A DNA stretch of 34,216 nucleotides from Thermodesulfobacteriota bacterium (lineage in GTDB: Bacteria; Desulfobacterota; BSN033; UBA1163), in contig JAOAHX010000027.1 of NCBI GenBank assembly GCA_026415035.1, forward strand, positions 1 through 34,216. Reading direction: 5' to 3'. The notes below the pieces were generated by a model. That model saw only the letters and a program-made list of their open reading frames with translations. It searched no databases and had not been told where the DNA came from. The translations under genes and the position numbers were made by a program. Shown piece after piece: positions 10,600-27,906 of the stretch. Each line of letters begins with the position of its first letter. Position 1 is the stretch's first letter.

Positions 10600-12051
10600 C
10601 TACATCAATCCGGCGATCGATCTCTGCGCAAAGGAGAGGACATTGGCAGGAAAGAGTCCCATGTAAAGGGTCCCGATCAGGGCCAAAATCAATGCGAGAA
10701 CCGGGGCCGGAAGAAAGGCAGGGAGGGAGATCTCTCGGGTGGCCTCCCTGAAATACATCAAGACCGTCACCCGGAGGTAGTAATAGACGGAGAGGGCGCT
10801 GTTGAGGACACCGATGACGGTCAACCAGTAAAACTTGGCCTCCACGGCCGCGCTGAAGACATAAAATTTGGCCATGAACCCGCCCAAAGGGGGGATGCCC
10901 GCCATCGAAAGGAGGAAGATCGTCAGGGAGGCGGCCAGAAGAGGATACTTAAATCCGATCCCCGCGTAGTCCGTGATCTGGGTATTCTCCTCCCCTTTCT
11001 TCCCGAGGAGGATGACGCAGGTAAAGGCCCCGAGGTTCATGAAGGCATAGGCCATGAGATAGAAGAGGATCCCCGCGGTCCCGGAGGGATTTCCAGCCAC
11101 GAAGGCGACCAGGATGTACCCGGCATGGGCGATGCTCGAGTAGGCCAGCATCCTTTTGATGTTGCTCTGGGAGATGGCCAGGAGATTTCCCACGGTCATG
11201 GTCAAGGCCGCCAGAAGCCACAGGATGGCCGTCCAGTCGGTCCGGAACTCCCCGAGGCCCGTGAAGAAGACCCGGAGGAGGGCCGAAAAACCGGCGGCCT
11301 TGACGCCGGTGGCCATGAAGGCGGTCACCGAAGTGGGCGCCCCCTCGTAGACATCGGGCGTCCACATGTGAAAGGGAACCGAGGCGATCTTGAAACCGAA
11401 GCCGATCGTCAGAAAGGCGAGGCTCATCAGGAGCAGGGGATGATCCAAGAGCCTCTTTTCAGCGATGAAGGAGGCGATCGCCTTCAGGGAAAGGGAGCCC
11501 GTGGCCCCGTAGAGGAAGGCGATCCCGTAGAGGAGAAACCCGGTGGCAAAGGCCCCTAACAGAAAATACTTGAAGGCGGACTCCACCGAACGATGGTCCT
11601 CCCTCATCATGCCGGCCAGGATGTAGACGGAGATGGACATCGTCTCCAGGCCGAGGAAGAGGACGATCAGGTGGGCTCCCGAGGCCATGAGCACCATCCC
11701 CAGCGTGGCAAAGAGGAGGAGGGCGTAATACTCCCCGAACCCCATCCCTTCCCGCGTGACGTAGCCCATCGAGGTCAGGAGGGTGAGAAAGGCGATCAGG
11801 AGGATGGTGATCTTGAAGAAGACGGCCAGCCCATCGGCGACAAACATCCCCTCGAACCCGGACTTTCCGGATCCGACCAGAGGAAGGGTGTAGAAGAAGG
11901 CAATGGCCACGCCGACGAGGCTGAGGAGCCCGAGAAACTCCTTCCTCTCCCTCTTCGGCCAAAAGACATCGATCAGGAGGACGAGGAACCCGAAAACCGC
12001 GAGGACGATTTCTGGGGCTATGAGATAGAGATCGATCTCTGGGAATTTCAT
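10600..12051 (-). CDS. nuoN: NADH-quinone oxidoreductase subunit N-like (complex I antiporter-type subunit)
   Basis: Polytopic membrane protein of 483 residues, about 14 helices, homologous to Mrp-type antiporters and one of three ion-pumping subunits of complex I. The conserved acidic residue of helix 5 is Glu136 in GLETMS, and the ion-channel region around FKIASVPFHMWTPDVYEGAP is intact. It is the last nuo gene, 94 bases after nuoM, and starts at an ATG preceded by GGAGGAG. It belongs to the membrane arm, farthest from neither end (between M and the K/J/A group). Length and motifs are normal for the family. Confidence 0.96.
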   Translation of the reverse strand: MKFPEIDLYLIAPEIVLAVFGFLVLLIDVFWPKRERKEFLGLLSLVGVAIAFFYTLPLVGSGKSGFEGMFVADGLAVFFKITILLIAFLTLLTSMGYVTREGMGFGEYYALLLFATLGMVLMASGAHLIVLFLGLETMSISVYILAGMMREDHRSVESAFKYFLLGAFATGFLLYGIAFLYGATGSLSLKAIASFIAEKRLLDHPLLLMSLAFLTIGFGFKIASVPFHMWTPDVYEGAPTSVTAFMATGVKAAGFSALLRVFFTGLGEFRTDWTAILWLLAALTMTVGNLLAISQSNIKRMLAYSSIAHAGYILVAFVAGNPSGTAGILFYLMAYAFMNLGAFTCVILLGKKGEENTQITDYAGIGFKYPLLAASLTIFLLSMAGIPPLGGFMAKFYVFSAAVEAKFYWLTVIGVLNSALSVYYYLRVTVLMYFREATREISLPAFLPAPVLALILALIGTLYMGLFPANVLSFAQRSIAGLM

Positions 12052-12145: not shown

Positions 12146-13690
12146 CTACTTTTTGACCTCGGCCACGACCTTCGGCTCAGGCCGCTCCGCCTTCATCTCC
12201 ACCTTCGCCTTCACCTCGCTCAAAAACTTCTCCACGCTCGCCTCCATCCTGTCGAAGAAGACCTTTGGATAGACGCCCATCAGGAAGATCAGGGCGATCA
12301 TGGGAACGAGCGTGAGGACTTCCCGCACTTGGAGGTCCTTCAACCCCTCGTTTTCCGGATGGGTGATCTTGCCGAACATCACCCGCTGGAACATCCAAAG
12401 CATGTAGGCCGCCCCGAGGATGACCCCCGTGGCCGCCAGCACACCGTAGACCCGATTGGCCTGAAACGCCCCGAGGAGGATGAGAAATTCTCCCACGAAC
12501 CCGTTCGTGCCGGGCAACCCGATGGAGGAAAGGGTCACGATCATAAAACAGGCGGCCAAAACCGGCATCGCCTTCGAGATCCCGCCGAAATCGGCAATCA
12601 TCCGGGTATGCCGCCTTTCATAAAGCATTCCGACGATGAGGAAGAGGGAGCCCGTGCTGATCCCGTGATTGAGCATCTGATAGATCGACCCCTGAACCCC
12701 CTGGGGATTGAAGGCGAACATCCCGAGCATGACGTAGCCGAGATGGCTGACACTTGAGAAGGCGACGAGCCTTTTGAGGTCGGGCTGCATCATCGACACC
12801 AGCGCCCCGTAGAGGATCCCGATGAGGGCCAGGGTCGAGATGAGGGGCATGAGACCGAAGGCGGCATGGGGAAACAGGGGGATGGCAAACCGGATGAACC
12901 CGTAGGTTCCCATCTTGAGCAGGACGCCCGCGAGGATGACGCTCCCGGCGGTCGGCGCCTCGGTGTGCGCATCGGGTAACCACGTATGAAATGGAAACAT
13001 CGGCACCTTGATGGCAAAGGCGAGGGCAAAGGCCGAAAAGAGCCAGTACTGCGTGGAGACCGGGAGGTTCAACCGGTAGAGTTCGAGCAGGTCGAAGGTC
13101 CCCTTGCCCGCAGTGCTGGCCTGGTGAAAATAGAGGGCCAAGATGGCCACCAACATTAAGACGCTTCCGGCCATGGTGAAAAGGAAGAATTTGATCGCCG
13201 CATAGATCCGCCTTGCAGGATTGCCCCAGACGCCGATCAGGAGGTACATGGGGATGAGCATCGCCTCCCAGAAGACGTAAAAGAGGACGAGGTCCAGGGC
13301 GACCAGGGCGCCGACCATCCCGGTTTCGAGAAAGAGGAAGGAGAACAGATACTCCTTCACCCGGAAAGTGATGGCCGTCCACGAACAGAGGATACAGAGG
13401 ACGGTCAGAAAGGTCGTCAGCAGCACGAGGAGCAGGCTGATCCCGTCGATCCCGACCTTGTAACTGATCCCGTAAGCCTCCACCCACCACCAGTCCTCCA
13501 CGAACTGCATCGATCCGGTCGTGGGGTCGAACTTAAAAAACAGGGGAAGGGAGGCAAGGAATTCGATCAGGGCAATGACCAGGGTCGTCCACCGAAGGGT
13601 CTCCTCCTTCTTGAGGAAGAGAAGGAGAAAGGCCCCCGCGAGGGGGAAGAAGATCAGAAAGGATAGGATGGGGATGCCCAAGATGTCCAT
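12146..13690 (-). CDS. nuoM: NADH-quinone oxidoreductase subunit M-like (complex I antiporter-type subunit)
   Basis: Polytopic pumping subunit of 514 residues. The conserved Glu142 ([13 protein letters not shown]) and Lys228 ([18 protein letters not shown]) that form the proton path are both present. It starts with AAGGAG nine bases upstream and lies 45 bases after nuoL in the standard L-M-N order. The C-terminal 25 residues form a charged Lys/Glu-rich tail (ending VVAEVKK), a little longer than usual. Nothing suggests loss of pumping: this membrane arm should move ions when the hydrophilic arm exchanges electrons with quinone. Confidence 0.97.
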
Positions 13691-13735: not shown

Positions 13736-15679
13736 TCATCTGAGGAAGATCCCCCGGAGAAGGTAGTATCCTGCGAGGATCACTCCGCCGACGACCATCG
13801 AAAAGGCATAATGCTGAACCAGCCCGGTCTGAGCCCTTCTCATCACGCTGGAGATCCAGCCGATGAGATAGGCCAACCCGTTGACCGTCCCGTCGATCAC
13901 GAACTCATCAAACCCCTTCCAGAGCCCGCGGCCCAGACCCTTGATGGAGTCGACGAAGAGGATCTGGTAGAGCTCGTCTACATAATACTTGTTCGAGACC
14001 ACCCTGTAGACCCCCCTCCATCTTTCGGCCAACACCTTGGGGAGGTGGGGATGCTTCAGATAAAGCACGTAGGCGACCCCGATGCCCCCGAGGGCGATGG
14101 CCACGGAGAGGGCCATGAGGAAGAGCTCGAGCGCCGCGGAGTGTCCCCCGGTTCCACCCGCCGCCCCTGCCTCAGCCGTCCCCCCTCCACCCACCACCGG
14201 CGCCAAAAATTCGTGGAGGTGATTGGCCCCTCCCAGCACATGGGGCACGCCCACATATCCTCCCACGATCGAGAGAAGGGCCAGGAGCACGAGGGGAACG
14301 GTCATGATCTTCGGAGATTCGTGGACGTGATGTTCGATGTGGGGATCGACCCTCGAGGCCCCGAAGAAGGTCAGGAAGAGCGCCCGGAACATATAGAAGG
14401 CGGTCATGCCCGCGGCCACCGCGGCCACCAGCCAGATGAGGAAGTGGCCCCGTGGGCTGGAGAAGGCCATCCAGAGGATCTCGTCCTTGCTGAAGAAGCC
14501 GGACAGACCGGGAATCCCCGAGATCGCCAGCGTGGCGACGAAGAAGGTCCAGAAGGTGACGGGAATCTTCCTTCTCAGCCCTCCCATCCTCCGGATGTCG
14601 AGCTCTCCGCTCAGGGCGTGCATGACGCTGCCCGCGCCCAGGAAGAGGAGGCCTTTGAAGAAGGCATGGGTCATCAGGTGGAAGATGCCCGCGGCATAGG
14701 CCCCCACGCCCACGGCCACAAACATATAGCCGAGCTGGCTGATCGTGGAATAGGCCAAAATCTTCTTCAGGTCGTACTGGCAGAAGCCGATCGAGGCCGT
14801 GAAGATGGCCGTGGCCACCCCGACGATCGCCACCACCGCCATCGCCAAGGGCGCCATATTGTAGAGGACGCTGCAGCGGGCCACCATGTAGACGCCTGCC
14901 GTCACCATCGTGGCGGCATGGATCAAGGAGCTGACCGGCGTGGGGCCCTCCATCGCATCGGGAAGCCAGACGTAGAGGGGGATCTGGGCCGATTTCCCGC
15001 AGGCCCCCAAAAAGAGCAGGAGGCCGATCGCCGTGGCCGTCTCGGTCGTCAGACCGGACGCTTTCGCAAAGGCCTCGGTGAAGTCGAGGGTCCCGAGGTG
15101 GATAAAGATCAGAAACATGCCCAAGATGAAACCGAAATCGCCCACCCGGTTCACCACAAAGGCCTTCTTTCCCGCGTTGGCCGCCGAATCCTTCTCATAC
15201 CAGAAACCGATCAGGAGATAGGAGCAGAGGCCCACGCCTTCCCAGCCTACGAACATCAGGAGGAAGTTGTTGGCCAGGACGAGGTTGAGCATCATGAAGA
15301 CGAAGAGGTTGAGGTAGGTGAAGTAACGGGCATAACCCGGATCGTCGTGCATGTAGCCCACCGAGTAGATGTGGATGAGAAAGCTCACGCCGGTCACGAT
15401 CAGGGCCATGAGGATGGAAAGGGGGTCGATCTGATAACCGATCACCGTCCGAAAGCCCCCCGAGACGACCCAGTCGAAGAGCACCTTCTCGAAGAGCCGG
15501 TCCGCCGGAGGCCTCTGGATCAGGTCGAAGAAGACCAGGACCGAGGTGAAGAAGGAGAGGCCGATGGCCGAAGGGCCTACCCAGCTGACCGTGGCCTTTC
15601 CGAACCTTTTCCCCAAAAGGCCGTTGACCAGAAATCCGAGGAACGGAAAGAGGGGGATGAGCCACACATACTCGAGCAT
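13736..15679 (-). CDS. nuoL: NADH-quinone oxidoreductase subunit L-like (complex I distal pump)
   Basis: Distal antiporter-like subunit, 647 residues. Conserved features are Glu147 in GWEGVGLCSYLLIGFWYE, the PIDPLS-like QIDPLSILM near 83-91, and the HAATMVTAGVYM stretch. The C-terminal part carries the amphipathic lateral helix and final membrane helix (about 580-645) that clamp N and M. The loop at about 495-510, rich in Gly and Ala (VGGGGTAEAGAAGGTGG), is an insertion of low complexity before the lateral helix. The start has AAAGGAG upstream. The gene is 55 bases after nuoK. A 627-codon open frame on the opposite strand is a codon-bias shadow. Confidence 0.97.
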   Translation of the reverse strand: MLEYVWLIPLFPFLGFLVNGLLGKRFGKATVSWVGPSAIGLSFFTSVLVFFDLIQRPPADRLFEKVLFDWVVSGGFRTVIGYQIDPLSILMALIVTGVSFLIHIYSVGYMHDDPGYARYFTYLNLFVFMMLNLVLANNFLLMFVGWEGVGLCSYLLIGFWYEKDSAANAGKKAFVVNRVGDFGFILGMFLIFIHLGTLDFTEAFAKASGLTTETATAIGLLLFLGACGKSAQIPLYVWLPDAMEGPTPVSSLIHAATMVTAGVYMVARCSVLYNMAPLAMAVVAIVGVATAIFTASIGFCQYDLKKILAYSTISQLGYMFVAVGVGAYAAGIFHLMTHAFFKGLLFLGAGSVMHALSGELDIRRMGGLRRKIPVTFWTFFVATLAISGIPGLSGFFSKDEILWMAFSSPRGHFLIWLVAAVAAGMTAFYMFRALFLTFFGASRVDPHIEHHVHESPKIMTVPLVLLALLSIVGGYVGVPHVLGGANHLHEFLAPVVGGGGTAEAGAAGGTGGHSAALELFLMALSVAIALGGIGVAYVLYLKHPHLPKVLAERWRGVYRVVSNKYYVDELYQILFVDSIKGLGRGLWKGFDEFVIDGTVNGLAYLIGWISSVMRRAQTGLVQHYAFSMVVGGVILAGYYLLRGIFLR

Positions 15680-15734: not shown

Positions 15735-16052
15735 TTACCATTTCAACAGTTGGACCTCATCGACGTTGATCGTCCCCTTGGACCGGTAGAGCATCACGAA
15801 GATGGCCAATCCCACGGCGGCCTCGGCTGCGGCCACGGCCATCACGAAGAAGGCGAAGATCACGCCGTCGATGGACTGGAGACAACGGGCAAAGGTGACG
15901 AACGTCAGATTGACGGCGTTGAGCATCAACTCGATCGAGATGAAGACGACGATGGCGTTCCGCCGGGTCAAGGCGCCGATGGCGCCGATGGTGAAGAGGG
16001 CGCCGCTCAAGACGAGGTAGAGGCTCGGAGGGATGCTCGGGATGGCCCACAT
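15735..16052 (-). CDS. nuoK: NADH-quinone oxidoreductase subunit K-like
   Basis: Small membrane subunit of 105 residues with three helices. The two buried glutamates of the family are present: Glu41 in [11 protein letters not shown] and Glu77 in [13 protein letters not shown]. These lie on the path coupling the quinone site to the pumping subunits. It starts at 16052, with AAGGAG eight bases upstream, twelve bases after nuoJ. Confidence 0.95.
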
Positions 16053-16064
16053 GGTCGTTTCTCC

Positions 16065-16592
16065 TTATCTCCTCTGCTTGCTTAAGATGACCGCCCCGAT
16101 CATGGCCGCCACGAGGAGGATCGAGACGATCTCGAAGGGAAAGAGATACGTGGTGAAGATGGCCTCTCCGACGGCCCTCACATCGGCCCCGACCTTTTCT
16201 GGGGCGTAGGAACCCGTCTGCCCGCTCGGGGCGCGGGCGGTAACCGCATACACGATGCCGATGAGAAAGAGAACGGAAAAGAGGCCTCCGAGGACCTTGG
16301 CATAGGCGATCTTCAACCGGGAGCGGAGCTCCGTCTCCAGATCGAGGAGCATGATGACGAAGACGATGAGCATGACGATGGCCCCGGCATAGACGATGAC
16401 CTGGATGATGGCGATGAAGGGGCTGTAGAGGAGGAGGTAAAGGACCGCCACACAGAGGAGGGTGAGCGCCATGAAGAGGGCGCTGTGGATCGGGTTTTTC
16501 CGTGTGATGACCATCAGGGAGGCGACGATCGAGACAAAGGCCACCCCCAGAAAGATGAGCCATTGAAAGAGGGTCCCAAGATGTTCAGCCAT
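16065..16592 (-). CDS. nuoJ: NADH-quinone oxidoreductase subunit J-like
   Basis: Membrane subunit of 175 residues with five predicted helices, within the normal range. The conserved third-helix segment (VIVYAGAIVMLIVFVIMLLD, residues about 64-83) is intact; this helix rotates and carries a pi-bulge in known structures. The loop after helix 4 is mostly hydrophilic (about 128-145). AGGAG precedes the start. Between it and nuoI lies a 112-base spacer with no gene, the largest gap inside this part of the operon, holding a 6-bp GC hairpin (16632-16656). Confidence 0.93.
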   Translation of the reverse strand: MAEHLGTLFQWLIFLGVAFVSIVASLMVITRKNPIHSALFMALTLLCVAVLYLLLYSPFIAIIQVIVYAGAIVMLIVFVIMLLDLETELRSRLKIAYAKVLGGLFSVLFLIGIVYAVTARAPSGQTGSYAPEKVGADVRAVGEAIFTTYLFPFEIVSILLVAAMIGAVILSKQRR

Positions 16593-16704: not shown

Positions 16705-17118
16705 TCATAGGTTGTTCCTCTTCTCCTCCAGGAGCCTCTCCGTGTTCATCAGAAAGGGAGCCCTCGATCGCTCCACCCATTCATAGTTCTTGCCGACGAA
16801 GATGGCATTGACCGGACAGGCCTCCTCGCAATAGCCGCAGAAGATACACCTCAAGGCGTCGAGTTCATAGGAGAGGGGATATCGCCGCCCCTCCGGGTCC
16901 TCTGCGGTCACGATGGAGATGCACTGGGAGGGGCAGACCGCCATGCAGAGCCCGCAGGCCACACACTTCGGCCTCCCCTCCTCGTCTCGCTCGAAATATT
17001 GAATCCCCCTCCACCGTTTGGCCGGAGGCCGTTTCTCTTCGGGATACTGAATGGTGATGGGTCGGGAGAAGAACTGCTTCAGGGTGAAGGCCAGGCCTTT
17101 GAGCAAGGGAACGATCAT
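16705..17118 (-). CDS. nuoI: NADH-quinone oxidoreductase subunit I-like, two 4Fe-4S ferredoxin
   Basis: Peripheral iron-sulfur subunit, 137 residues, that carries clusters N6a and N6b between the input module and NuoB. Two complete motifs are visible: Cys52, 55, 58, 62 (CVACGLCMAVCP, with an extra Cys66) and Cys91, 94, 97, 101 (CIFCGYCEEACP). It is somewhat shorter than the roughly 160-180 residues of many homologues, mostly in the C-terminal tail. GGAGGGGG precedes the start, and it is 13 bases after nuoH. The presence of NuoI shows that electrons are expected to enter through a further module rather than directly at NuoB. Confidence 0.95.
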   Translation of the reverse strand: MIVPLLKGLAFTLKQFFSRPITIQYPEEKRPPAKRWRGIQYFERDEEGRPKCVACGLCMAVCPSQCISIVTAEDPEGRRYPLSYELDALRCIFCGYCEEACPVNAIFVGKNYEWVERSRAPFLMNTERLLEEKRNNL

Positions 17119-17131
17119 CAGAAACCCCCTC

Positions 17132-18151
17132 CTATCCTTTCAATGAAACGACCAGCGCCGTGACCAGGAGGTTGCCGAGGGCCAGGGGAAAAAGCACCTT
17201 CCAGCCGAATTTCATGATCTGATCGTAACGGAGCCTCGGGAACGTCCCCCTCTGCCAGATGAAGAAGAAGAGGAAGACGAAGAGCTTGGCGCAGAACCAG
17301 ACGACCCCCGGAATGAAATCGAGCTGGGGCAAGGGGGGCTGCCATCCTCCCCAGAACAGGGTCACAGCCAGGCCAGCCATGGCGATCATGTGGGCGTATT
17401 CGGCCATGAAAAAGAGGGCAAACTTCATGCTGCTGTATTCGATGTTGAAGCCACAGGCCAGTTCCGATTCGGACTCCGGCATATCGAAGGGCGTCCGGTT
17501 GATCTCGGCCAGGCCGCAGACGAGGTAGAGGAGGAAGGCCAGGGGTTGATACCAGACGTTCCAGTTCCAGAAGCCGCCGGCCTGCTGAAGGACGATCTCC
17601 GTGAGCCTCAGACTTCCCGACAGGAGGATGACGCCGGTGATCGAAAGGCCGAGGGCCACCTCGTAGCTGATCATCTGGGCAGCGGCCCGCAGCGAACCGG
17701 TCAGGCCATACTTGTTTCCCGAAGACCAGCCGCCCAGGACGATCCCGAACTCGCCCAGAGAGGCCACGCCGAAGAGGTAGAGCAGGGCGATGTCGATGTC
17801 GGCGATCCTCAATTTGACGACCCAGTCGGTGAAGGGAACCCGGAACTCGTGGCCGAAGGGGATGACCGCGAAGAGGGCGATGGCCGAGACGATGGAGATC
17901 ATGGGCGCCAGGACGAAGACCGGCTTGTCGGCGCCCGCTGGGATCAGATCCTCCTTGAAGAAGGCCTTGATGCCGTCGGAGAGGGGCTGGAGGAGTCCGA
18001 AGGGGCCACAGCGGTTCGGACCGTAACGGACCTGGAGGTGGCCCAGGACCTTCCGCTCCAGCCAGGTGAGATAGGCGACCGAGAGCATCAGGCAGGCGAA
18101 GACCACCACGCACTTCACGATGATCTCAATGAGAAGGTATAAGACCTGCAT
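17132..18151 (-). CDS. nuoH: NADH-quinone oxidoreductase subunit H-like
   Basis: Membrane subunit of 339 residues forming, with B and D, the quinone chamber. Conserved loops are present: TWLERKVLGHLQVRYGPNRCGPFGLLQPLSD near the N-terminus (segment about 29-60), the acidic loop with AEINRTPFDMPESESELACGF in the middle, and FVFLFFFIWQRGTFPRLRYDQ near the C-terminus. The acidic E-channel residues appear intact. The start at 18151 (MQVLYLL) has GGAAGGAG upstream; an in-frame ATG at 18187 would overlap the previous gene and adds 12 charged residues. There are 25 bases between it and the upstream flavoprotein gene. Confidence 0.96.
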   Translation of the reverse strand: MQVLYLLIEIIVKCVVVFACLMLSVAYLTWLERKVLGHLQVRYGPNRCGPFGLLQPLSDGIKAFFKEDLIPAGADKPVFVLAPMISIVSAIALFAVIPFGHEFRVPFTDWVVKLRIADIDIALLYLFGVASLGEFGIVLGGWSSGNKYGLTGSLRAAAQMISYEVALGLSITGVILLSGSLRLTEIVLQQAGGFWNWNVWYQPLAFLLYLVCGLAEINRTPFDMPESESELACGFNIEYSSMKFALFFMAEYAHMIAMAGLAVTLFWGGWQPPLPQLDFIPGVVWFCAKLFVFLFFFIWQRGTFPRLRYDQIMKFGWKVLFPLALGNLLVTALVVSLKG

Positions 18152-18176: not shown

Positions 18177-20129
18177 TCACACCGCAAACAGTCCGATTCG
18201 CACGCATCGGAGGCACCGTTCCGCCTCCTTCTGGGCTACGGGAATGGAGAACCCCTTCTCCACCTCGTCAAAGGTCCACTTCCTCGTCTCGGGAGGAAGC
18301 CTCTCGGGCATGGCCCGCCCCTTTCCGGCCGGATGGTCGATCCTCTCCTCCCGATCGTAAACCTTGATCCTCTCGAGGAGGGCCTCCATCCGCTCCTCCT
18401 CCGGTTCCTTCAACTCCCTTCCCTGGAGATAGGCATCGATCTGCTCGGCAGCCCTTCGGCCATGGGCCGCTGCCCGGACCAGGACGTCCGGTCCGAGGAC
18501 GCAATCTCCGCCCGCAAAGACCCCCGGCCGGCTCGTCAGAAAGGTCCCTTCTTCGATCGCCAGGGTCGACCGTTTCGTCGTATTGATCCCGTCCCTCTCG
18601 CCGAGAAAGGAGAGGTCGATCGCCTGACCGATCGCGGGGATGACGATATCGGCCTCGAGGAAGAACTCCGAACCCCTGATGGGGATGGGTCTTCGTCTGC
18701 CGCTCTCATCCGGTTCGCCCAGTTCCATGCGGATGCATTCCACGCCGATCACCCTGCCCTCTTTGGCCACGATTCGCACCGGATTGCAGAGGTAATGAAA
18801 GACCACCCCCTCCTCTTCGGCCTCGTGGATCTCGGCCCGGTCGGCGGGCATCTCCTTCTTGGTCCTCCGGTAGACGAGATGGACATCGGTCTTTCCGATC
18901 CGGAACGAAGAGCGGACGCAATCGATCGCCACATTGCCCCCGCCCACCACGACGACCCGCTTCCCCTCAGGATAAGGGTCCCGGCCGAGGTTGATCTCCT
19001 GGAGGTAGTAGACGCCCGGAATAAATCCTCTGTACCCCCTATCCTCTCCTTCCACGCCCATGGGCGTGTTGGTCTGGGCGCCGACCGCAATGTAGAGGGC
19101 CTTAAATCCCTCTTCGAGGATCTGGGAGATCGTGATCTCCTTTCCCACTTGGACGCGGTAACGAAATTCCACCCCTAACCTTTCAAGGAGGCCTGTCTCG
19201 TAGCGTACGATCTCCCTCGGAAGCCTGTAGTCGGGGATTCCATAGGTGGCCATGCCCCCGGCCTCTTCCATGCGTTCGAAGACCGTGACCCGGTAACCTT
19301 TGAGGGCAAGATAATAGGCGCAGGTCAGGCCCGAAGGTCCGGCGCCGATGATGGCCACCCTCTCGGTTCGGAGAGGGGCCTTCGCCATTTCAGGGAGGAT
19401 CCCCCTCTCCCGTTCAACATCGGCGACGAATCGCTTGAGCCATTTGATGGAGAGGCCCTCATCCACGTTCTGACGCCTGCAATGTTCTTCGCAGGGCCGG
19501 ATGCAGACCCTCCCCAGAATGCCCGCCATACAGGTGGCCTCCCGGATGGCGGCGAGCGATTCTCTGTACCGGCCCTCTTTGATCAATTCGATATATCGGG
19601 TGATGGGGAGACGGGAGGGACAGGCGTTTTCGCAAGGCGCGGTCACCTTCACCCGATACGCCTGCCGGGGGAGCTTTCGCTTCAACCGAATCGCCTCGGA
19701 AAAACGGTCCTGAAAGTGTTCGAGCCCATGGAGCAAGGGCCTGGGCCCGGTCTGGCCCAAGTTGCATTTCGAACTCTGAAGGATCATCTCCGCAAGTGTC
19801 CTCAGCCTCTGCAGGTCCTCAGGTCTCCCCTCGCCATCGGCAATGCGGTTCAGGATCGTCGAGAGAATCCGGGTGCCCACACGGCAAGGGGTACACTTCC
19901 CGCACGACTCCCTCTGAACGGCCTCGATGTAAGCCCGGAGCAGATCGACGGGATCGACCTCGGGGCTCCGGATCACGATGCCATCCCAGCCGATGAAGGC
20001 CTTGATCGGCCTTTCCCGGTCGAACTGAACCGGAAGGGTGAGATTGGGCAGGGGGCTCCATTCCGTCTCCGGCCTTCCACGGTTGTCGACCACCACGCCT
20101 CCCCAACTGCTGAACAGGATGCCGGCCAT
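18177..20129 (-). CDS. NuoF C-terminal fragment fused to GltD-like FAD/NADPH oxidoreductase
   Basis: A 650-residue fusion placed where nuoE/F/G normally sit. Residues about 40-145 match the end of NuoF: SLBB-like start, then the N3 4Fe-4S ligands Cys76, 79, 82 (ESCGKCTPCRVGT) and Cys122 (SSKCNLGQ). The NADH/FMN Rossmann part of NuoF is absent. Residues about 160-240 form a GltD/DPYD-type double-cluster domain (Cys166, 170, 200, 209, 213, 217). From about 257 on it is GltD-like: FAD motif IGAGPSG (261-267), second dinucleotide motif VVGGGNVA (394-401) with YRRTKKEMPA (420-429), where the arginines usually favour NADPH, and FAGGD (538-542). A CLRC pair (639-642) sits at the C-terminus. The start has AAGGGGA upstream, so the N-terminus is not simply truncated. 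Likely role: FAD-based NADP(H) module paired with the formate dehydrogenase; it resembles beta subunits of NADP-dependent formate dehydrogenases, from memory. Confidence 0.88.
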   Translation of the reverse strand: MAGILFSSWGGVVVDNRGRPETEWSPLPNLTLPVQFDRERPIKAFIGWDGIVIRSPEVDPVDLLRAYIEAVQRESCGKCTPCRVGTRILSTILNRIADGEGRPEDLQRLRTLAEMILQSSKCNLGQTGPRPLLHGLEHFQDRFSEAIRLKRKLPRQAYRVKVTAPCENACPSRLPITRYIELIKEGRYRESLAAIREATCMAGILGRVCIRPCEEHCRRQNVDEGLSIKWLKRFVADVERERGILPEMAKAPLRTERVAIIGAGPSGLTCAYYLALKGYRVTVFERMEEAGGMATYGIPDYRLPREIVRYETGLLERLGVEFRYRVQVGKEITISQILEEGFKALYIAVGAQTNTPMGVEGEDRGYRGFIPGVYYLQEINLGRDPYPEGKRVVVVGGGNVAIDCVRSSFRIGKTDVHLVYRRTKKEMPADRAEIHEAEEEGVVFHYLCNPVRIVAKEGRVIGVECIRMELGEPDESGRRRPIPIRGSEFFLEADIVIPAIGQAIDLSFLGERDGINTTKRSTLAIEEGTFLTSRPGVFAGGDCVLGPDVLVRAAAHGRRAAEQIDAYLQGRELKEPEEERMEALLERIKVYDREERIDHPAGKGRAMPERLPPETRKWTFDEVEKGFSIPVAQKEAERCLRCVRIGLFAV

Positions 20130-20190: not shown

Positions 20191-21363
20191 TTATCGGTCG
20201 ATCTCTCCCAAAACGATATCGATGCTTCCGATGGTGGCGATCACATCGGCAATCAGGCTCCCTTCGATCATCCTTGGAAGGGCGCTCAGGTTAAGGAAGG
20301 AGGGTGGGCGAATCCTCACCCTCAAGGGCCGATTCGACCCGTCGCTCACCACATAGAACCCCAGTTCCCCTTTGGCCGCTTCCACGCTCGCATAGGCCTC
20401 TCCCTTCGGGACGTTGAATCCCTCGGAAGCGATCTTGAACTGGTGGATCAGGCTGGCGATGTCGGTGAGGACCTTCTCCTTGGGGGGCAGGACCACCTTT
20501 GGATCGTCGGCAAGAATGGGTCCCTTCGGCAGTCGCTCGAGGGCCTGTCTCACAATGGCATTCGACCACTCCATCTCCCTCAGCCGGACATAGTACCGGT
20601 CAAAGACATCGCCCGCCGAACCGACGGGGATGTCGAATTCAAACTCTTCGTAACTCGAATAAGGAAGGGCCTTCCGGACATCCCATTTCACGCCCGACCC
20701 CCGGAGGGTGGGACCCGTGACTCCCCAGTTGATCGCATCCTCTTTCGTGAGGACCCCCACGCCCTTGGTCCGTTTCAACCAGATCACGTTTCGGGTCAAG
20801 AGCTTCTCATACTCCTGGATGCGTTTTGGGAAGGCCTCCACAAAGGCCTTGATCTTCGCCTCGATCCCCTCCGGGAGGTCCTTGGCCACCCCGCCGATCC
20901 TCAGATATGTCGGGGTGAGCCTGCCTCCCGCCACCTCCTCGAAGATCCTCAGGACCTCCTCCCTCTCTCTGAAATTGTAGAAGAGCAGGGTCATGGCGCC
21001 GATGTCGAGGGCATGGGTTCCGAGCCAGATGAGGTGGGCGGCAATCCTCTGGAGCTCGGCCATCATCACCCTTAGGTATTGGGCCCTTTTCGGCACCTCG
21101 ATGCCGAGCAACTTCTCCACGGCCAGGACGTAGGCCAGGTTGTTCCCCATGGCATTGGTGTAGTCGAGCCGATCCGTGAGCGGGATGATCTGGTGGTAGG
21201 TCCTCGCCTCGGCCAGCTTCTCCACCCCCCTGTGGAGGTGCCCGATATGGGGGGTCGCCTTGACGACCACCTCACCCTCCAGCTCCAGCACGAGCCTCAG
21301 CACGCCGTGGGTGGCGGGATGCTGGGGACCCATGTTGATGGTCATCAACCGTCTCTCTGTCAT
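20191..21363 (-). CDS. nuoD: NADH-quinone oxidoreductase subunit D-like (49 kDa)
   Basis: Peripheral subunit of 390 residues that forms the quinone-reduction site with NuoB and descends from NiFe-hydrogenase large subunits. The headgroup ligands expected from known structures are His19 (GPQHPATHG) and Tyr68 (TDRLDY). The hydrogenase metal-binding cysteines are absent, which argues for a quinone-reactive complex rather than a membrane hydrogenase. The ATG at 21363 lies one base after the nuoC stop, with AGAGG before it; longer starts lie inside nuoC. Separate C and D genes, not fused. Confidence 0.96.
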   Translation of the reverse strand: MTERRLMTINMGPQHPATHGVLRLVLELEGEVVVKATPHIGHLHRGVEKLAEARTYHQIIPLTDRLDYTNAMGNNLAYVLAVEKLLGIEVPKRAQYLRVMMAELQRIAAHLIWLGTHALDIGAMTLLFYNFREREEVLRIFEEVAGGRLTPTYLRIGGVAKDLPEGIEAKIKAFVEAFPKRIQEYEKLLTRNVIWLKRTKGVGVLTKEDAINWGVTGPTLRGSGVKWDVRKALPYSSYEEFEFDIPVGSAGDVFDRYYVRLREMEWSNAIVRQALERLPKGPILADDPKVVLPPKEKVLTDIASLIHQFKIASEGFNVPKGEAYASVEAAKGELGFYVVSDGSNRPLRVRIRPPSFLNLSALPRMIEGSLIADVIATIGSIDIVLGEIDR

Positions 21364-21364
21364 G

Positions 21365-21847
21365 TCAGACCTCTGGGACATAAGGTTTGCCAAAGTCAGG
21401 CCCTTCGAGGGGGAAGTCTTTCCTCAGCGGGTGGCCTTCGAAGCCATCCCAGAGAAGGATCCTTCGGAGGTCGGGATGGTTATCGAAGGAGATCCCCAAA
21501 AGGTCGAAGACTTCCCTTTCGAGCCAGTTGGCCGCCTTCCAGATCGACTCGACGCTGGCAACGGATTGACCTTCTCCGACCCTCGTCTTCACCCTCAATC
21601 GATCGTTTCTCTTGAAGGAATGGAGGAAGTAGACGACCTCGAACCGGGGAACCGACGGGTAGTAATCGACCCCGCAAAGGTCGACGAGCATGTGGTACTG
21701 GAGGTCGGGATCGGCGTAGAGAAACCGGCAGATCTCGAAGAGATCCTCCTTCGGCACCGTCACGCTCACCTCGCCCCGAAAACTCGTCTCTTCGAAGACA
21801 GAACCGGAAAACCTCTCCCGTAACTTTTGGACCGCCGGATGACCCAT
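21365..21847 (-). CDS. nuoC: NADH-quinone oxidoreductase subunit C-like (30 kDa)
   Basis: Peripheral subunit of 160 residues. The family signature is seen in WLEREVFDLLGISFDNHPDL followed by RRILLWDGFEGHPLRKDFP. It binds NuoD and helps hold the hydrophilic arm. The start has GGGGGAACGAG upstream. It sits 20 bases after nuoB and one base before nuoD, implying translational coupling. Confidence 0.95.
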   Translation of the reverse strand: MGHPAVQKLRERFSGSVFEETSFRGEVSVTVPKEDLFEICRFLYADPDLQYHMLVDLCGVDYYPSVPRFEVVYFLHSFKRNDRLRVKTRVGEGQSVASVESIWKAANWLEREVFDLLGISFDNHPDLRRILLWDGFEGHPLRKDFPLEGPDFGKPYVPEV

Positions 21848-21867: not shown

Positions 21868-22377
21868 TTATCCCCTCGGATGAAGGGTGCTCCTGACATC
21901 TTTTCGGTCGGCTAAACTCTCCTTCTCGATCTTCCTCTGAAGCTCCAGGATCGCGGTGAGGAGCGACTCCGGCCTGGGTGGACAGCCCGGCACATAGACG
22001 TCGACCGGGATCATCTGATCCACGCCCTGGACCACGTTATAGGTCTTGAAGATCCCGCCCGAACAGGCGCAGGCCCCATAGGCGATCACCCACTTCGGCT
22101 CGGGCATCTGCTCGTAGATCCGTTTGACCATGGGAGCCATCTTTTTGGTCAGCGTTCCCGCCACGATCATCAGGTCGGCTTGCCGGGGCGAGGGCCTGAA
22201 GACCTCCGAGCCGAACCTCGAGATATCCCAGGTCCCAGAACTGGTGACCATCATTTCAAGGGCACAGCAGGCCAGTCCGAAGGTGACCGGCCAGATGGAG
22301 TATTTTCTGCCCCAGTTGACCACCTTGTCGAGGGTGGAGAGGTAGGGCGTCTTCTCAAGGTAGCTTTCTATTCCCAT
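21868..22377 (-). CDS. nuoB: NADH-quinone oxidoreductase subunit B-like (N2 cluster)
   Basis: Peripheral subunit of 169 residues binding the terminal 4Fe-4S cluster N2, which hands electrons to quinone. Ligands are Cys37 and Cys38 (ACCALEM), Cys103 (GACACSGG) and Cys132 (GCPPRPE). The ATG at 22377 lies inside the end of nuoA (ten-base overlap) with AAGGAG upstream; the longer upstream frame is only the nuoA shadow. All N2 ligands are present, so the quinone module should be functional. Confidence 0.96.
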
Positions 22378-22782: not shown

Positions 22783-25455
22783 CTAAGGATGGGCCTTCTC
22801 AATCCGGACCGTAGAGTATTTCAAATCCGGGATCTTCGATTCCGGATCGAGCACGGTGTTGGTGAGAAGGTTGACCGGCGCCTCCGAAAAATGGAATTTG
22901 GCAAAGGCCACGCCCTTGGCCACCCGCTTCGTGATCTTCACCTTTGAGGTAAACTCCCCTCTTCGGCTGATCACCCGAACCCAGTTTCCCTCGCCGATGC
23001 CCAGTCTCTCCGCATCCGAAGGATGGATCTCCACAAGGCTCTCCGGACACATCTCGTTGAGGAGTCTCACCTTCCGGGTCATGCTCCCAGCATGGTAGTG
23101 GTAATAATCCCTTCCGGTGCTCAGGATGAACGGATAATCCCGGTCCGGGATTTCGGGGGGTGGGGTGTAATCGACGGGCACAAACAATCCCTTCCCTCTT
23201 GCGATCTTTCCGCGGTGGAGGATCGGCGTCCCGGGATGGTTCACATCGGGACAGGGCCACTGGATGCCCCCGGATTCCAGCCGGGCATAGGTGATGCCCG
23301 CGTATTGGGGCGTGACCTTCCGGATCTCCTCGAAGATCTCCTCCGGGCCTCGATAAGACATGGGATATCCGAATCGGGAGGAGATCTCTGCGATGATCTC
23401 CCAGTCGGCCTTTGCGCCTTCGGGACCTTCGAGGGCCTTTCTCACCCGCTGAACCCTCCTCTCGGTGTTGACAAACGTGCCGTCCTTCTCGAGGAAGCTC
23501 AGGGTCGGAAAGACGACATGAGCCTGTTGGGCAGACTCGGTGAGGAAGATGTCCTGGACGACGAGGAGTTCCAGCTTGGCATAGGCCTTTTGAAGGTGAG
23601 AAAGATCAGGGTCGGTGACCATGGGATTCTCGCCCATGATGTAGATCGCCTTCACCTCTCCCCGGTAGGCCGCCTCGCCCATCTCCACGACGGTCAAACC
23701 GGGTTTGTCGGAGAGCGGGGCGTTCCAGAAGTTTTCGAACTTCTCCCGGTTCTCCCGGAGGGCCACCGGCTGATACCCAGGATAGACATTGGGCAGACCG
23801 CCCATGTCGCAGGCCCCCTGGACGTTGTTCTGCCCTCTTAAGGGATTGACGCCACTGCCCGGCTTCCCGATCTGTCCGCAGAGGAGCGCCAGATTGGAGA
23901 TGGCCTTCACCCCGTCCGTCCCTTTGGAGTGTTGCGTGATCCCCATGCAGTAGAGGATGGCCGCGTTCTTGGCCGTGCCGTACATCCTGGCCGCCTTGAT
24001 GAGATCCTCTTTCGGGATCCCGGTCACCTCCTCGACATATTCCGGCGTATATTGGCGGACTTTCTCCTTGAAGGCCTCGAAGCCTTCGGTATGGGCCTCG
24101 ATGAAGGCCCTGTTATAGAGACCCTCCTGGATGATGATGTGGGCCATCCCGTTCAGCCAGGCGATGTCATCCCCGGGTTTGGGCTGAAGGAAGAGGTCGG
24201 CCTCCTCGGTGAGGTCGATCCGCCTCGGATCGACGACGATGATCTTGGCCCCGTGGAAACGGGCCCGATGTCTGAGGAGCATCCCGATCACGGGATGGGT
24301 CTCGGTCGTGTTGCTTCCCGTCACCAGGAGGAGATCCGCCTCCTTGAAATCGGCGATGGAATTGGTCATGGCGCCCGAGCCCAAGGTCGTGGCCAGACCG
24401 ACCACGGTGCTGGAGTGTCAGAGACGGGCACAGTGGTCGACGTTGTTCGTTCCGATGGCCGCCCGAAGGAACTTCTGAAAGAGGTAGTTCTCCTCGCAGG
24501 TCACCCGTGCGGAGGCCAGGCCCGCGATGCTATTGGGCCCGTACTTGGCCTTGATCTCCCTGAGCTTGTTCGCGACGTAATTCAAGGCCTCCTCCCAGCC
24601 CGCTTCCCTGAACCTCCCGTTCTCTTTGATAAGGGGGGTCCGGAGTCTTTCAGGGCTGTGGACAAATTCGAATCCGAACCGTCCTTTGACGCAGAGAACC
24701 CCTTGATTCGTGCCGAGCCCTTCCCGCGTCGTCACCTTGATCACCCGGTTTTGGACCACGTTCACCTCGAGGGCACAGCCCACGCCGCAGTATCCGCAGA
24801 CGGTGGTCACCCTCTTGGCCTGCCACTTCCTCCCCTTGATCGCGCTGACGTTCTCCGTGAGCGCTCCCACTGGACAGGCAGAGAGACATTCTCCGCAGGA
24901 GATACACCGCTCTGGCCGGACCGGTTCGACCCGTGCTTCAAAGCCCGTTCCCTGGAGGTCAAGGACCTCCCGGCCGACGACCTCCCGGCAGGTTCGGATA
25001 CATCGACTACAGAGGATGCAGCGATTCGGATGGTATTTGATCGCGGGCGTGGCATAGGTCTTGGGCTCTTTGGCCGGGGCATCCACCCGGTACAGGGCCT
25101 GCGTGATGCCGTATTCATAAACATAATCCTGGAGGTCGCATTCCCCTCCCTTATCACAGACCGGACAGTCAAGAGGATGGTTCACCAGGAGGAACTGTAG
25201 GACCTCCTTGCGGATCTCGCGAACCCTTTCGGTCTCGGTCTCCACCACCATGCCGTCCTGGGCCATGGTGTTGCAGGCCGTCACAGGACTTTTAAGGCCC
25301 TGAACCTCCACCACGCACATCCGGCACATCCCCGTTGGAAGAAGGCTTTCCATGTGGCAGAGGGTCGGAATCCGGATGCCTCCTGTTTTGGCCATCTGGA
25401 GGAGGGTCTGTCCCTCTTCTCCTACAATTACCTTTCCATTGATCGTGATCTTCAT
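22783..25455 (-). CDS. fdhA: Selenocysteine formate dehydrogenase alpha subunit with NuoG-like N-terminus
   Basis: Mo/W-bis-MGD formate dehydrogenase of 890 residues when the TGA at 24418-24420 is read as selenocysteine 346 (context DHCARL-Sec-HSSTVVGLA, the usual active-site setting). N-terminal NuoG-like part: 2Fe-2S ligands Cys33, 44, 47, 61; a His93/Cys97/Cys100/Cys106 cluster; two 4Fe-4S ferredoxin motifs (Cys146, 149, 152, 156 and Cys184, 187, 190, 194). The catalytic part opens with Cys220, 223, 227 and 255 for another 4Fe-4S cluster and ends with a molybdopterin dinucleotide-binding domain. The start at 25455 (MKITINGK) fits the 2Fe-2S family. It heads the nuo operon and takes the place of NuoG. 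Size and domain order match alpha subunits of NAD(P)-dependent cytosolic formate dehydrogenases. A homologous reading as a CO2 reductase is equally possible. Confidence 0.93.
24388..24420 (-). promoter_or_regulatory. Selenocysteine codon and bacterial SECIS hairpin in fdhA
   Basis: The TGA (24420-24418) is followed after eleven bases by a 7-bp stem, CGTGGTC (24406-24400) with GGCCACG (24394-24388), closing a five-base GGTCT loop (24399-24395). The loop is the same as in the SelB-binding hairpin of E. coli fdhF, and the U opposite G in the stem could provide the bulged U of that element. Distance from the TGA fits bacterial SECIS elements, which recruit SelB with Sec-tRNA. The frame stays open on both sides with full family conservation, so this is recoding and not a broken gene. 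Confidence 0.88.
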
Positions 25456-25623: not shown

Positions 25624-25652
25624 TGAATAGAACAACCCATCGAAATTGTCAA
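25624..25652 (-). promoter_or_regulatory. Sigma70-like promoter of the fdhA-nuo operon
   Basis: Reading the minus strand, a perfect TTGACA (25652-25647) is followed after 17 bases by TATTCA (25629-25624). The start would be near 25617, leaving a leader of about 160 bases before fdhA. The leader has no open frame with a good ribosome binding site. The rest of the divergent region 25456-25747 holds only this promoter and a facing one for the flavoprotein gene. Confidence 0.6.
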
Positions 25653-25672
25653 GTTAAAAAGATTTCCAATCC

Positions 25673-25701
25673 TTGACGTTCCCCTCCTGCTCTGATAGGC
25701 T
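25673..25701 (+). promoter_or_regulatory. Putative promoter of the Old Yellow Enzyme-type gene
   Basis: TTGACG (25673-25678), a 17-base spacer and TAGGCT (25696-25701), about 45 bases upstream of the ATG. The -35 is good and the -10 weak. It points away from the fdhA-nuo promoter; the two -35 elements are about 20 bases apart, so regulators bound there could affect both. Confidence 0.4.
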
Positions 25702-25747
25702 TTTGAAGAGAGTGAGCTTGAGCCTTTTTTGAAACGGAGGTCCGTCC

Positions 25748-26854
25748 ATGAGGCACCTTTTCGAAACCACCTGGATCAAGGGACTGCAATTGCCCAACCG
25801 ATTCGTTCGCTCCGCCACCTGGGAGGGCATGGCCACACCCAAGGGAGCGGTCTCCCCAAAACTGGTGGAAACGATGATCCGCCTGGCCAGAGGCGGTGTC
25901 GGATTGATCATCACGGGGCATGCCTATGTCCGGCCGGAGGGACAGGCGAGCCCTTTTCAGCTCGGCATCCACCAGGACGATCTCGTCCATGGGCTTCAAG
26001 AAATGACCCAGGCGGTCCATGCTCAGGGTGGGAAGATCGTCCTCCAACTGTCTCACGCCGGAAGGTTCGCATGGAGGGAGGGAATCGGAAGACCTCCCCT
26101 GGTTGTCTCAGGAGATGGCTCGTCGTCTTCTCCGGTCGAAGAGCTCACCAAGCCGGCCATTCAGGAGCTGGTCCAGGCCTTTGCAGAGGCCGCCCGAAGG
26201 GCGAAGACCGCGGGTTTCGACGGGATTCAGATCCATTCTGCCCACGGTTACCTTCTCAACCAGTTCCTCTCTCCCGCCTTCAACAGGCGGCAGGACGAAT
26301 ACGGTGGGGACTTGCGCAACCGGGTCCGGGTCCATCTCGAGATCTGCGAGGCCCTCCGGAAGGTGGTGGGCGAAGACTATCCAATCCTGATCAAACTCAA
26401 CGGCAGAGACTTCATCGAAAACGGGTTGAGCCTTGAAGAGTCGGTCCAGATCGGAAAGATCCTGGCCCGGGGTGGAATCGATGCCATCGAGCTCAGCGGC
26501 GGCATGATCATCGCCGGCAAGTTCTCGCCCAGCCGCCAGGGGATCGACTCGAGGGAGAAGGAGGCCTATTTCCAGGAAGAGGCGAAGGTGATGAGAGGAG
26601 AGGTGGGAATCCCCTTGATCCTGGTCGGGGGCATCCGGTCCTTTGAGGTCGCAGAAAAGCTCCTCCAGGATGGCGTTGCCGATTACATCTCGATGAGCCG
26701 ACCCCTCATCCGGGACCCCGACCTGATCCTTCGCTGGAAAAGGGGCGAGCGTCACCGATCCGCCTGTCGCTCTGACAACCTCTGCTTCAAACCCGGAAGG
26801 GAGGGGGAGGGCGTCTATTGCGTGGTGAGGGCGAAGGAGGAGGGTGCGTCCTGA
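25748..26854 (+). CDS. NADH:flavin oxidoreductase, Old Yellow Enzyme family
   Basis: FMN-dependent TIM-barrel oxidoreductase of 368 residues. Family motifs: N-terminal LPNRFVRSATWEG, the substrate-binding pair His163/His166 with Tyr168 in IHSAHGYLLNQFLSP, the NRRQDEYGGDLRNR segment, and GGIRSFEVAEKLL with YISMSRPLIRDP for phosphate binding. The C-terminal cysteine group that binds 4Fe-4S in dienoyl-CoA-reductase relatives is only partly kept (a Cys-x5-Cys followed by one more Cys near the end), so a cluster is doubtful. GGAGG lies nine bases before the ATG. It probably reduces an activated C=C bond; the substrate is unknown. Its last 40 bases overlap the convergent radical SAM gene. Confidence 0.88.
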   Translation: MRHLFETTWIKGLQLPNRFVRSATWEGMATPKGAVSPKLVETMIRLARGGVGLIITGHAYVRPEGQASPFQLGIHQDDLVHGLQEMTQAVHAQGGKIVLQLSHAGRFAWREGIGRPPLVVSGDGSSSSPVEELTKPAIQELVQAFAEAARRAKTAGFDGIQIHSAHGYLLNQFLSPAFNRRQDEYGGDLRNRVRVHLEICEALRKVVGEDYPILIKLNGRDFIENGLSLEESVQIGKILARGGIDAIELSGGMIIAGKFSPSRQGIDSREKEAYFQEEAKVMRGEVGIPLILVGGIRSFEVAEKLLQDGVADYISMSRPLIRDPDLILRWKRGERHRSACRSDNLCFKPGREGEGVYCVVRAKEEGAS

Positions 26855-27906
26855 CCGAGGGCCGCCCAATCCTTCGAGACAACCCCCTCCGGAAGAAGAA
26901 GCCCCAGCCTCCCCCGTGGGAAATCTTCCCTCAGGTTGATGGAGATCTGGTCCAGTTTGAACCGCCCGGTCAACCTCCGAAGATTTTCGTCCCGTTGCCC
27001 CCTCAGGTTGGTAAGGTCTTTCGGATGGCAGAGAAAGACCGGAGAAGATCCTTTAAGATGGACCCTCAGGAGGTGCTCCGAGAGATCATAAAAGAGGGCC
27101 GATTCGACCAGCTGATGGAGGGCGGGGTGATAGGGGCCAGCCAGGAGATGGGCTTCCAGCTCCCGGGTCGGCTGCAGACCCATCCGGGCAAGGGGGAGGC
27201 CAGCCTTTCTTAGCCTCAAAAGGCCCTTCTTCAACCACTCGATTCCCTCCTCCAGGGAGAGGGGAACATATGCTCCCCTCTTGTAGAACGCTTCAAGGGG
27301 GGAGCCTCTCAGCACAAGCGTCGGATGGATCCTCACAAAATCGGGCTTCAATTCGATCACCCGGTCCAGGGATTGGAGAAAGCCCTCGCAGGTGTCGCCA
27401 GGAAGCCCGATCATCAAATGGACGCCCACCTCAAACCCCCGCTCCTTCAATTCCCGGATCGCAGCGATTGAATCCTCCACCGTGTGACCCCTTTGGGAAA
27501 GGGCCAAGACCTTTTCGGACAAGGACTGGACGCCCAGTTCAACCGTCTTCACCCCGTACTGTTCGAGACGATCCAGGGCATCTTGACCCAGGGCATCGGG
27601 CCGGGTTGAGAGGCGAATCGAATGGACCTGTCCAGAAAGGAGGAAAGGCTGGACCACCCGCAGATAGGCAAGTTGATCCTCCTTGTCCATCGCCGTGAAA
27701 CTCCCTCCATAGAAGGCCACTTGCTTCTCCCGTCCCTCCAAGAGAGACGAAGATCGGCCAAGAAAGGCCTCGATGAGGTCGCTGACCATCCCGGGAGGGA
27801 GGGGAGCTTCTGCCCATGCCTTTTGGTTGCAGAAGAGGCATCGATGAGGACATCCCCGGTGGGGAAGGAAGATGGGGAGGATAAGAGGCGTCAAAGAAAT
27901 TCTCAT
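26815..27906 (-). CDS. Elp3-like/B12-independent radical SAM protein
   Basis: Radical SAM enzyme of 363 residues. The cluster-binding cysteines are Cys19, 23 and 26 (RGCPHRCLFCNQ), followed by FYGGSFTAMD (about 65-74), the glycine-rich SAM region and GVQSLSEKVL-RGHT, typical of the Elp3/YhcC-like group. No acetyltransferase domain follows, so it is not full Elp3. Substrate unknown; tRNA or other RNA modification is a reasonable guess given mtaB and rnc in the same operon. The start overlaps the rnc stop by four bases (ATGA). Its 3' end overlaps the convergent flavoprotein gene by 40 bases. Confidence 0.85.
   Translation of the reverse strand: MRISLTPLILPIFLPHRGCPHRCLFCNQKAWAEAPLPPGMVSDLIEAFLGRSSSLLEGREKQVAFYGGSFTAMDKEDQLAYLRVVQPFLLSGQVHSIRLSTRPDALGQDALDRLEQYGVKTVELGVQSLSEKVLALSQRGHTVEDSIAAIRELKERGFEVGVHLMIGLPGDTCEGFLQSLDRVIELKPDFVRIHPTLVLRGSPLEAFYKRGAYVPLSLEEGIEWLKKGLLRLRKAGLPLARMGLQPTRELEAHLLAGPYHPALHQLVESALFYDLSEHLLRVHLKGSSPVFLCHPKDLTNLRGQRDENLRRLTGRFKLDQISINLREDFPRGRLGLLLPEGVVSKDWAALGQDAPSSFALTTQ

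Follow-up and report, generated by a model that had tools for sequence, protein, structure and literature searches.

What is a 650-residue protein that joins a fragment of NuoF to a GltD-type oxidoreductase doing in the middle of a complex I operon? Its gene lies in the 34,216-nt stretch of Thermodesulfobacteriota DNA analysed here (the window, meaning the whole of that stretch). A stop codon interrupts the same interval on the plus strand, leaving the 650-residue frame on the minus strand only. The gene and the main sites of its product are as follows.

18177..20129, minus strand: fusion subunit (SfrB/NuoF-N3 plus GltD type), 650 aa; ATG at 20129, stop at 18177-18179, coding 20129..18180
Residues Cys76/79/82/122 of the fusion: N3 cluster ligands
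Residues Cys166/170/209/213/217, Cys639/642 and Lys232: predicted GltD cluster ligands
Residues 262-267: FAD motif GxGxxG
Residues ~394-430: putative NADP site

The frame is far beyond chance, because full-length orthologues (73-78% identity) were found in all 16 other family genomes tested and 83 of 395 genomes of the phylum gave matches with E 1e-175 or better. Named relatives place the protein in Thermodesulfobacteriota/Desulfobacterota. They come from a scan of genome contigs in which the matches listed were mostly distant GltD proteins but included L054 (Syntrophobacterales bacterium Delta_02, 57%) and L056. In the fusion tree, the end branch of the window's protein is 0.29 long, against 0.007-0.09 for its congeners.

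Pfam placed PF10589 (NuoF 4Fe-4S domain) at residues 62-145 (E 1e-26), PF14691 (Fer4_20) at 163-243 (E 3e-20) and PF07992 (Pyr_redox_2) at 257-557 (E 5e-30), and gave no match in the fusion to PF01512, the FMN/NADH domain. The NuoF model TIGR01959 aligned with residues 31-146 through its C-terminal end only (positions 294-409 of 410). PDB matches divided in the same way, with NfnA/NfnABC (9n5u, 9bov), StnC (8oh5) and NfnL (4ylf, 5jca) for the GltD half and HydB/NuoF-type chains (7t2r, 9bov_B, 8a6t) for the N3 half. The AlphaFold model (pLDDT 90, pTM 0.88) superimposes on StnC with Z 50 and 1.7 A over 472 residues (aligned range 48-649). The protein is the N3 domain of NuoF and a complete GltD/NfnB-type FAD-NADP(H) module in one chain. 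An earlier sequence-only reading had proposed this junction, with residues 40-145 as the NuoF-like part, the loss of the NADH/FMN Rossmann part, and a change of electron entry from FMN/NADH to FAD and probably NADPH; all of this is borne out, with the choice of NADP coming from homology only. Of the two outcomes named there as refuting it, a failure of residues 40-145 to align with NuoF or HoxF and a loss of the NADPH-site arginines in close homologues, neither was seen.

Across 19 aligned relatives, C76, C79 and C122 of the N3 set are invariant and C82 is nearly so, while C166, C170, C209, C213, C217, C639, C642 and K232 of the GltD module are invariant throughout. The six middle-domain cysteines counted earlier are thereby reduced to five, C199 not being invariant. 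The absence of a leading Cys-x2-Cys, with a CLRC pair at the extreme C-terminus instead, had been taken as unusual, but as a rule fused GltD modules are built in this way. A profile made from the C-terminal tail matches the Cys element with which GltD/NfnB proteins that stand alone begin (L098, 23-53, i-E 4e-9; L133, 15-45; L006, from the window's own genome, 41-71), as well as a C-terminal copy in most fused GltDs. From these matches, the leading pair of GltD is judged to have moved to the C-terminus, and CLRC very probably completes the cluster domain, as had been suggested. The seven cysteines and K232 add up to eight, the number expected for a pair of 4Fe-4S clusters provided that a residue other than Cys serves the proximal one, as K170 does in StnC (PMC10482914). 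In our own mapping of the alignment, K232 corresponds to StnC K170, and R302, invariant among the relatives, to StnC R239/NfnB R201. The NADPH-type motif at 420-430 (YRR....EMPAD) has Y420, R421, R422 and E426-D430 invariant in the 19 relatives and suggests NADP rather than NAD as the nucleotide.

Two features that the sequence-only reading did not contain are the complex I operon around the fusion gene and the partner FdhA in NuoG's place. The genes run on the minus strand from 25455 to 10600 in the order fdhA(Sec)-nuoABCD-fusion-nuoHIJKLMN:

22783..25455, minus strand: fdhA, selenocysteine (Sec) formate dehydrogenase alpha; TIGR01591 870 bits, with Sec read-through
24418..24420, minus strand: in-frame TGA (Sec) of fdhA; context DHCARL-U-H, identical in congeners
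24365..24423, minus strand: SECIS-like element; Rfam SECIS_3, 23 bits, below the gathering score
22368..22724, minus strand: nuoA (PF00507)
21868..22377, minus strand: nuoB (PF01058), N2 ligands present
21365..21847, minus strand: nuoC (PF00329)
20191..21393, minus strand: nuoD (PF00346); the start is that of the ORF, and the true start may be downstream
17132..18151, minus strand: nuoH (PF00146)
16705..17118, minus strand: nuoI, two 4Fe-4S
16065..16592, minus strand: nuoJ
15735..16052, minus strand: nuoK
13736..15679, minus strand: nuoL
12146..13690, minus strand: nuoM
10600..12051, minus strand: nuoN, the last of the complex I set

The fusion fills the nuoE-F-G slot between nuoD and nuoH, with flanking gaps of only ~61 and ~25 nt that leave no room for nuoE; neither nuoE nor a full nuoF nor a classical nuoG was found in the operon, which has no space for any of the three. 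The Q module is present as NuoBCDI, with the N2 ligands and the quinone-site motifs (GPQHPATH and DRLDY in NuoD), and NuoD cannot carry a NiFe site since it contains no cysteine at all. The membrane arm NuoAHJKLMN is complete. The NADH/FMN module (NuoE and full NuoF) is missing, and the N1b, N4 and N5 clusters of NuoG, with the N5 His, are provided by the N-terminus of FdhA, a formate dehydrogenase and not a classical NuoG. The operon is thus a complex I variant rather than a canonical NADH dehydrogenase, because the fusion has no PF01512 and nuoE has no space. It is the only complex I operon of the genome (3.06 Mb, 97% complete), which has a single nuoD. Upstream of fdhA, the minus strand carries two further frames (window 25649-26869), for which neither Pfam nor NCBIfam gave a match.

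Five FMN-type NuoF-like genes occur in the genome, all on other contigs and HydB-like, with frames of 605-662 codons. On one contig (G000:C9; L158:4671-12016), EtfBA and an acyl-CoA dehydrogenase come after a NuoF-like and a dead NuoG-like gene, of which the NuoG-like one is conserved in sister genera. We considered the NuoF/NuoG-like genes of this contig as an N-module acting in trans that would supply the missing NuoG, and rejected them because the family also occurs in sister genera beside their dead NuoG and because of its EtfBA and acyl-CoA dehydrogenase neighbours.

FdhA scores well above the TIGR01591 cut-off of 666 bits with the U-H pair kept, and a comparison with the PDB gives formate dehydrogenase alpha chains as its best matches. 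It combines a full NuoG-type N-terminus (N1b, N5, N4 and a bridging 4Fe-4S) with the FDH 4Fe-4S, and all 20 of its 20 cluster ligands are present. SelB and tRNA-Sec are encoded in the genome, and the window-genus sequences of the tree retain the Sec, the His after it and every FDH cluster ligand. The complex-I-like N5 His is found in 44 of 44 nuo-linked sequences, whereas 7 of 14 have it where the stretch read contains no nuo genes; as the sequences are related to one another, we regard the contrast as suggestive only.

Our preferred reading, to which we assign a probability of roughly two in three, is that the fusion plays the part of NuoF in a respiratory complex I variant fed through an SfrB/FdhA-type module. 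In it a catalytic FdhA would stand in NuoG's place, and the enzyme would couple formate, NADP(H) and quinone. We infer the assembly of the complex, its NADP specificity and formate activity, quinone as the acceptor and the direction of flow; the enzyme would probably be a proton-pumping, reversible formate/NADPH:quinone oxidoreductase. NADP(H) would react at the FAD of the GltD part, from which electrons would pass through the two 4Fe-4S clusters of that part to the retained N3, on to the NuoG-type N-terminus of FdhA (N1b-N4-N5), and then via NuoI and N2 in NuoB to quinone. Formate/CO2 would be turned over at the Sec-Mo/W site, which the FDH 4Fe-4S and the bridging ferredoxin-like cluster would link to the common chain. 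N7 is an isolated cluster in classical complex I; FdhA has every ligand of the bridging cluster, which would give formate electrons a path. The NuoHJKLMN arm would move the protons, pumped in the forward direction as formate and NADPH reduce quinone; in reverse, the proton gradient would be used to make formate or NADPH from quinol. Given potentials of about -420 mV for formate, -380 mV for NADPH and -74 mV for menaquinone (PMC9304861), either forward pumping or gradient-driven formate synthesis is allowed.

The genes of quinone biosynthesis weigh somewhat against this reading. No match to PF02621 (MqnA/D) was found in the genome and MenD appears only below the cut-off, although an MqnP-like prenyltransferase (UbiA) is present, with a UbiD-like and a binding-protein-like ORF as neighbours (L241:12-3258, C17). 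The lineage may make menaquinone by a route whose early step escapes recognition, or it may use a different quinone.

The order nuoABCD-fusion-[NuoG/FdhA-like]-nuoHIJKLMN recurs in many families of Thermodesulfobacteriota/Desulfobacterota. In 14 rows of the tree the FDH motif of the in-slot gene (DHCAR.[Sec/Cys]H) is intact; L226, which is split in two and was left out of the tree, makes a fifteenth. In about 22 of the tree set, counting the ambiguous L213 (G091:C79), the gene is catalytically inert. Both classes retain all five sets of cluster ligands, C155 varying in three inert members. The in-slot protein of L213 has kept the Cys, with Leu for the active-site His, and may be a recently inactivated copy.

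When a dead NuoG from a sister genus served as query, orthologues (54-100%), none with a Sec codon, turned up in eight genomes of sister genera or the class (G010-G015, G017, G018), and a partial 62% match in a ninth (G019). The same search found no orthologue in the window's genus, whose 10 genomes all have the Sec-FdhA, at 45-47% to the query. In the eight of these for which the region upstream of nuoA was read (the window and seven congeners), FdhA is directly upstream of nuoA and the fusion adjoins nuoH. The fusion tree places the window's genus among the dead-NuoG operons of its own family, with support of 100/99 for the genus and 99/92 for the set with g3/g4. In the FdhA tree, built by a quick method, its sister is a NuoG-slot Cys-FdhA of another family (L204; SH-aLRT 100), and the next neighbours are further NuoG-slot FdhAs. 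Since the fusion groups with the dead-NuoG operons of its family while the closest FdhA belongs to a different one, we read the two trees as suggesting that in the window's genus the dead NuoG was replaced by a catalytic one from another such complex. The Sec-FdhA found upstream of nuoA in sister genera (L035, L170, L172) was considered separately and set aside: by alignment, it is a different protein without the NuoG N-terminus, and in L166 it has Cys-rich Hdr-like ORFs beside it.

The strongest competing explanation is that fusion and FdhA together make up a soluble formate dehydrogenase of the NADP-dependent Moorella/SfrAB type, merely co-transcribed with a ferredoxin-fed, 11-subunit complex I. 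Complexes I of 11 subunits without an N-module are common (PMC11238625), and the same two proteins are paired without nuo genes in the stretch read at several loci (Desulfacinum L056, L044, L220-L222, L224), so that the pair can probably stand alone. A shared operon is not the same as co-assembly, and the fdhA of the window's genus lies upstream of nuoA, outside the slot. However, the fusion occupies the nuoD-nuoH interval, where in most relatives a NuoG-type protein, often dead, comes next to it, an arrangement that would be senseless for a soluble formate dehydrogenase; the loss of the dead NuoG in the window's genus, where FdhA is closest to the NuoG-slot FdhAs, argues the same way. We consider a soluble enzyme rather unlikely.

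Alternatively, the complex would be an NADPH:quinone complex I whose FdhA serves purely as a structural NuoG, with no formate turnover. The NADPH arm alone must be useful, given that many relatives have a dead NuoG in the complex. However, the window-genus sequences of the tree have kept the active-site residues and FDH ligands of FdhA, the window's FdhA scores 870 bits on TIGR01591 against a cut-off of 666, the Sec machinery is retained, and Sec is costly enough that its loss would be expected if it were unused; a purely structural role is therefore quite improbable. Least probable is the earlier proposal of flavin-based bifurcation or confurcation at the fusion FAD, which would couple formate and NADPH with a third carrier. 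In its favour, the domain is similar to the bifurcating NfnB, and the invariant Arg302 aligns with NfnB R201. Against it, there is no FMN domain, no Bfu-type NuoE and no NfnA gene in the operon; by alignment the C209-C213 loop is two residues shorter than in NfnB, with Lys232 instead of the Glu ligand of NfnB's proximal cluster; and the FAD site with Lys232 resembles that of StnC, whose FAD was shown not to bifurcate (PMC10482914).

The formate/NADPH-linked complex I that we favour can be set beside several known systems. It shares complete NuoABCD and NuoHIJKLMN sets, quinone-site motifs and N2 ligands with canonical complex I (NuoA-N), and differs in having neither NuoE nor the FMN domain and in the replacement of NuoG by an intact FDH. 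In contrast to complexes I without NuoEFG proper, a dedicated replacement input module is encoded. We take SfrB proteins to have the domain order NuoF N3 followed by GltD with a Cys tail, and the fusion has exactly this make-up, C-terminal Cys pair included. Its likeness to the beta subunits of NADP-dependent formate dehydrogenases, already remarked on from the sequence, is supported, the Moorella subunit being SfrB2 (PMC13040438). SfrB of Moorella (SfrB2) and Geobacter (SfrAB) also shares the partner type, an SfrA/FdhA with NuoG-like N-terminus; those enzymes are described as soluble, whereas the window's fusion gene is a member of a complex I operon. In Nuo-Bfu, a 14-subunit Nuo with BfuABC found for example in Geobacter, NuoEFG is likewise replaced by a different electron-input unit (PMC9304861). 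Nuo-Bfu keeps the FMN/NADH subunit BfuB and the NuoE-like BfuC, whereas the window operon has neither and would use an FAD/NADP(H) and FDH input. The best structural matches (Z 47-52) are the StnABC/NfnABC transhydrogenases (8oh5, 9bov, 9n5u), in which a GltD-type NADPH module with C-terminal Cys pair also feeds NuoG-type clusters; there, GltD is fused to NuoG with an FMN NuoF partner, whereas here it is fused to a NuoF stump with no FMN module. The SfrB-like fusion itself is therefore already known, as is the replacement of NuoEFG in a nuo operon (Nuo-Bfu). In the open-access literature, to which our search was confined (subscription papers being outside its scope), we found no description of an SfrB/FdhA-type complex I or of an operon like that of the window.

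The broader proposition, which we hold at even odds, is that a complex I widespread in Thermodesulfobacteriota has two catalytic inputs in a single peripheral arm, one for formate through a Sec/Cys-FDH at NuoG's position and one for NADPH through FAD-GltD on a NuoF N3 stump, that its NuoG position has switched between dead and live more than once, and that in anaerobic syntrophs it could run backwards, from quinol to formate at the expense of the proton gradient. NuoG is generally read as the dead descendant of a formate dehydrogenase-like enzyme. A seemingly living FDH in its place, with dead and live operons side by side, opens the origin of the N-module to direct testing. If real, a proton pump linked to formate and NADPH would also qualify as a candidate route by which syntrophic bacteria carry out reverse electron transport to formate, and it would alter the energy bookkeeping of many uncultured Thermodesulfobacteriota.

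Related modules were also seen in other settings. In family f41 (L205:39-8984, L203, L208, L211), the fusion occurs without nuo genes or FdhA nearby, close to ORFs that, judged by eye, are small and Cys-rich and, in L205, also Etf-like ones. At another locus (L166:265-6089; G011:C44), residues 396-1034 of a 1038-aa protein match the fusion and are preceded by ~400 residues of NuoF size; a Sec-FdhA follows directly. The 1038-aa protein looks like a full NuoF-GltD fusion and is possibly an intermediate form. Finally, in Chloroflexi bacterium RBG_16_72_14 (L102:4320-19110), a nuo operon of the order ABCDHI..JKLMN has a NuoF-type gene and a Stn/NfnABC-like GltD-NuoG fusion between nuoI and nuoJ, which may represent a second, different NADPH-type input on complex I.
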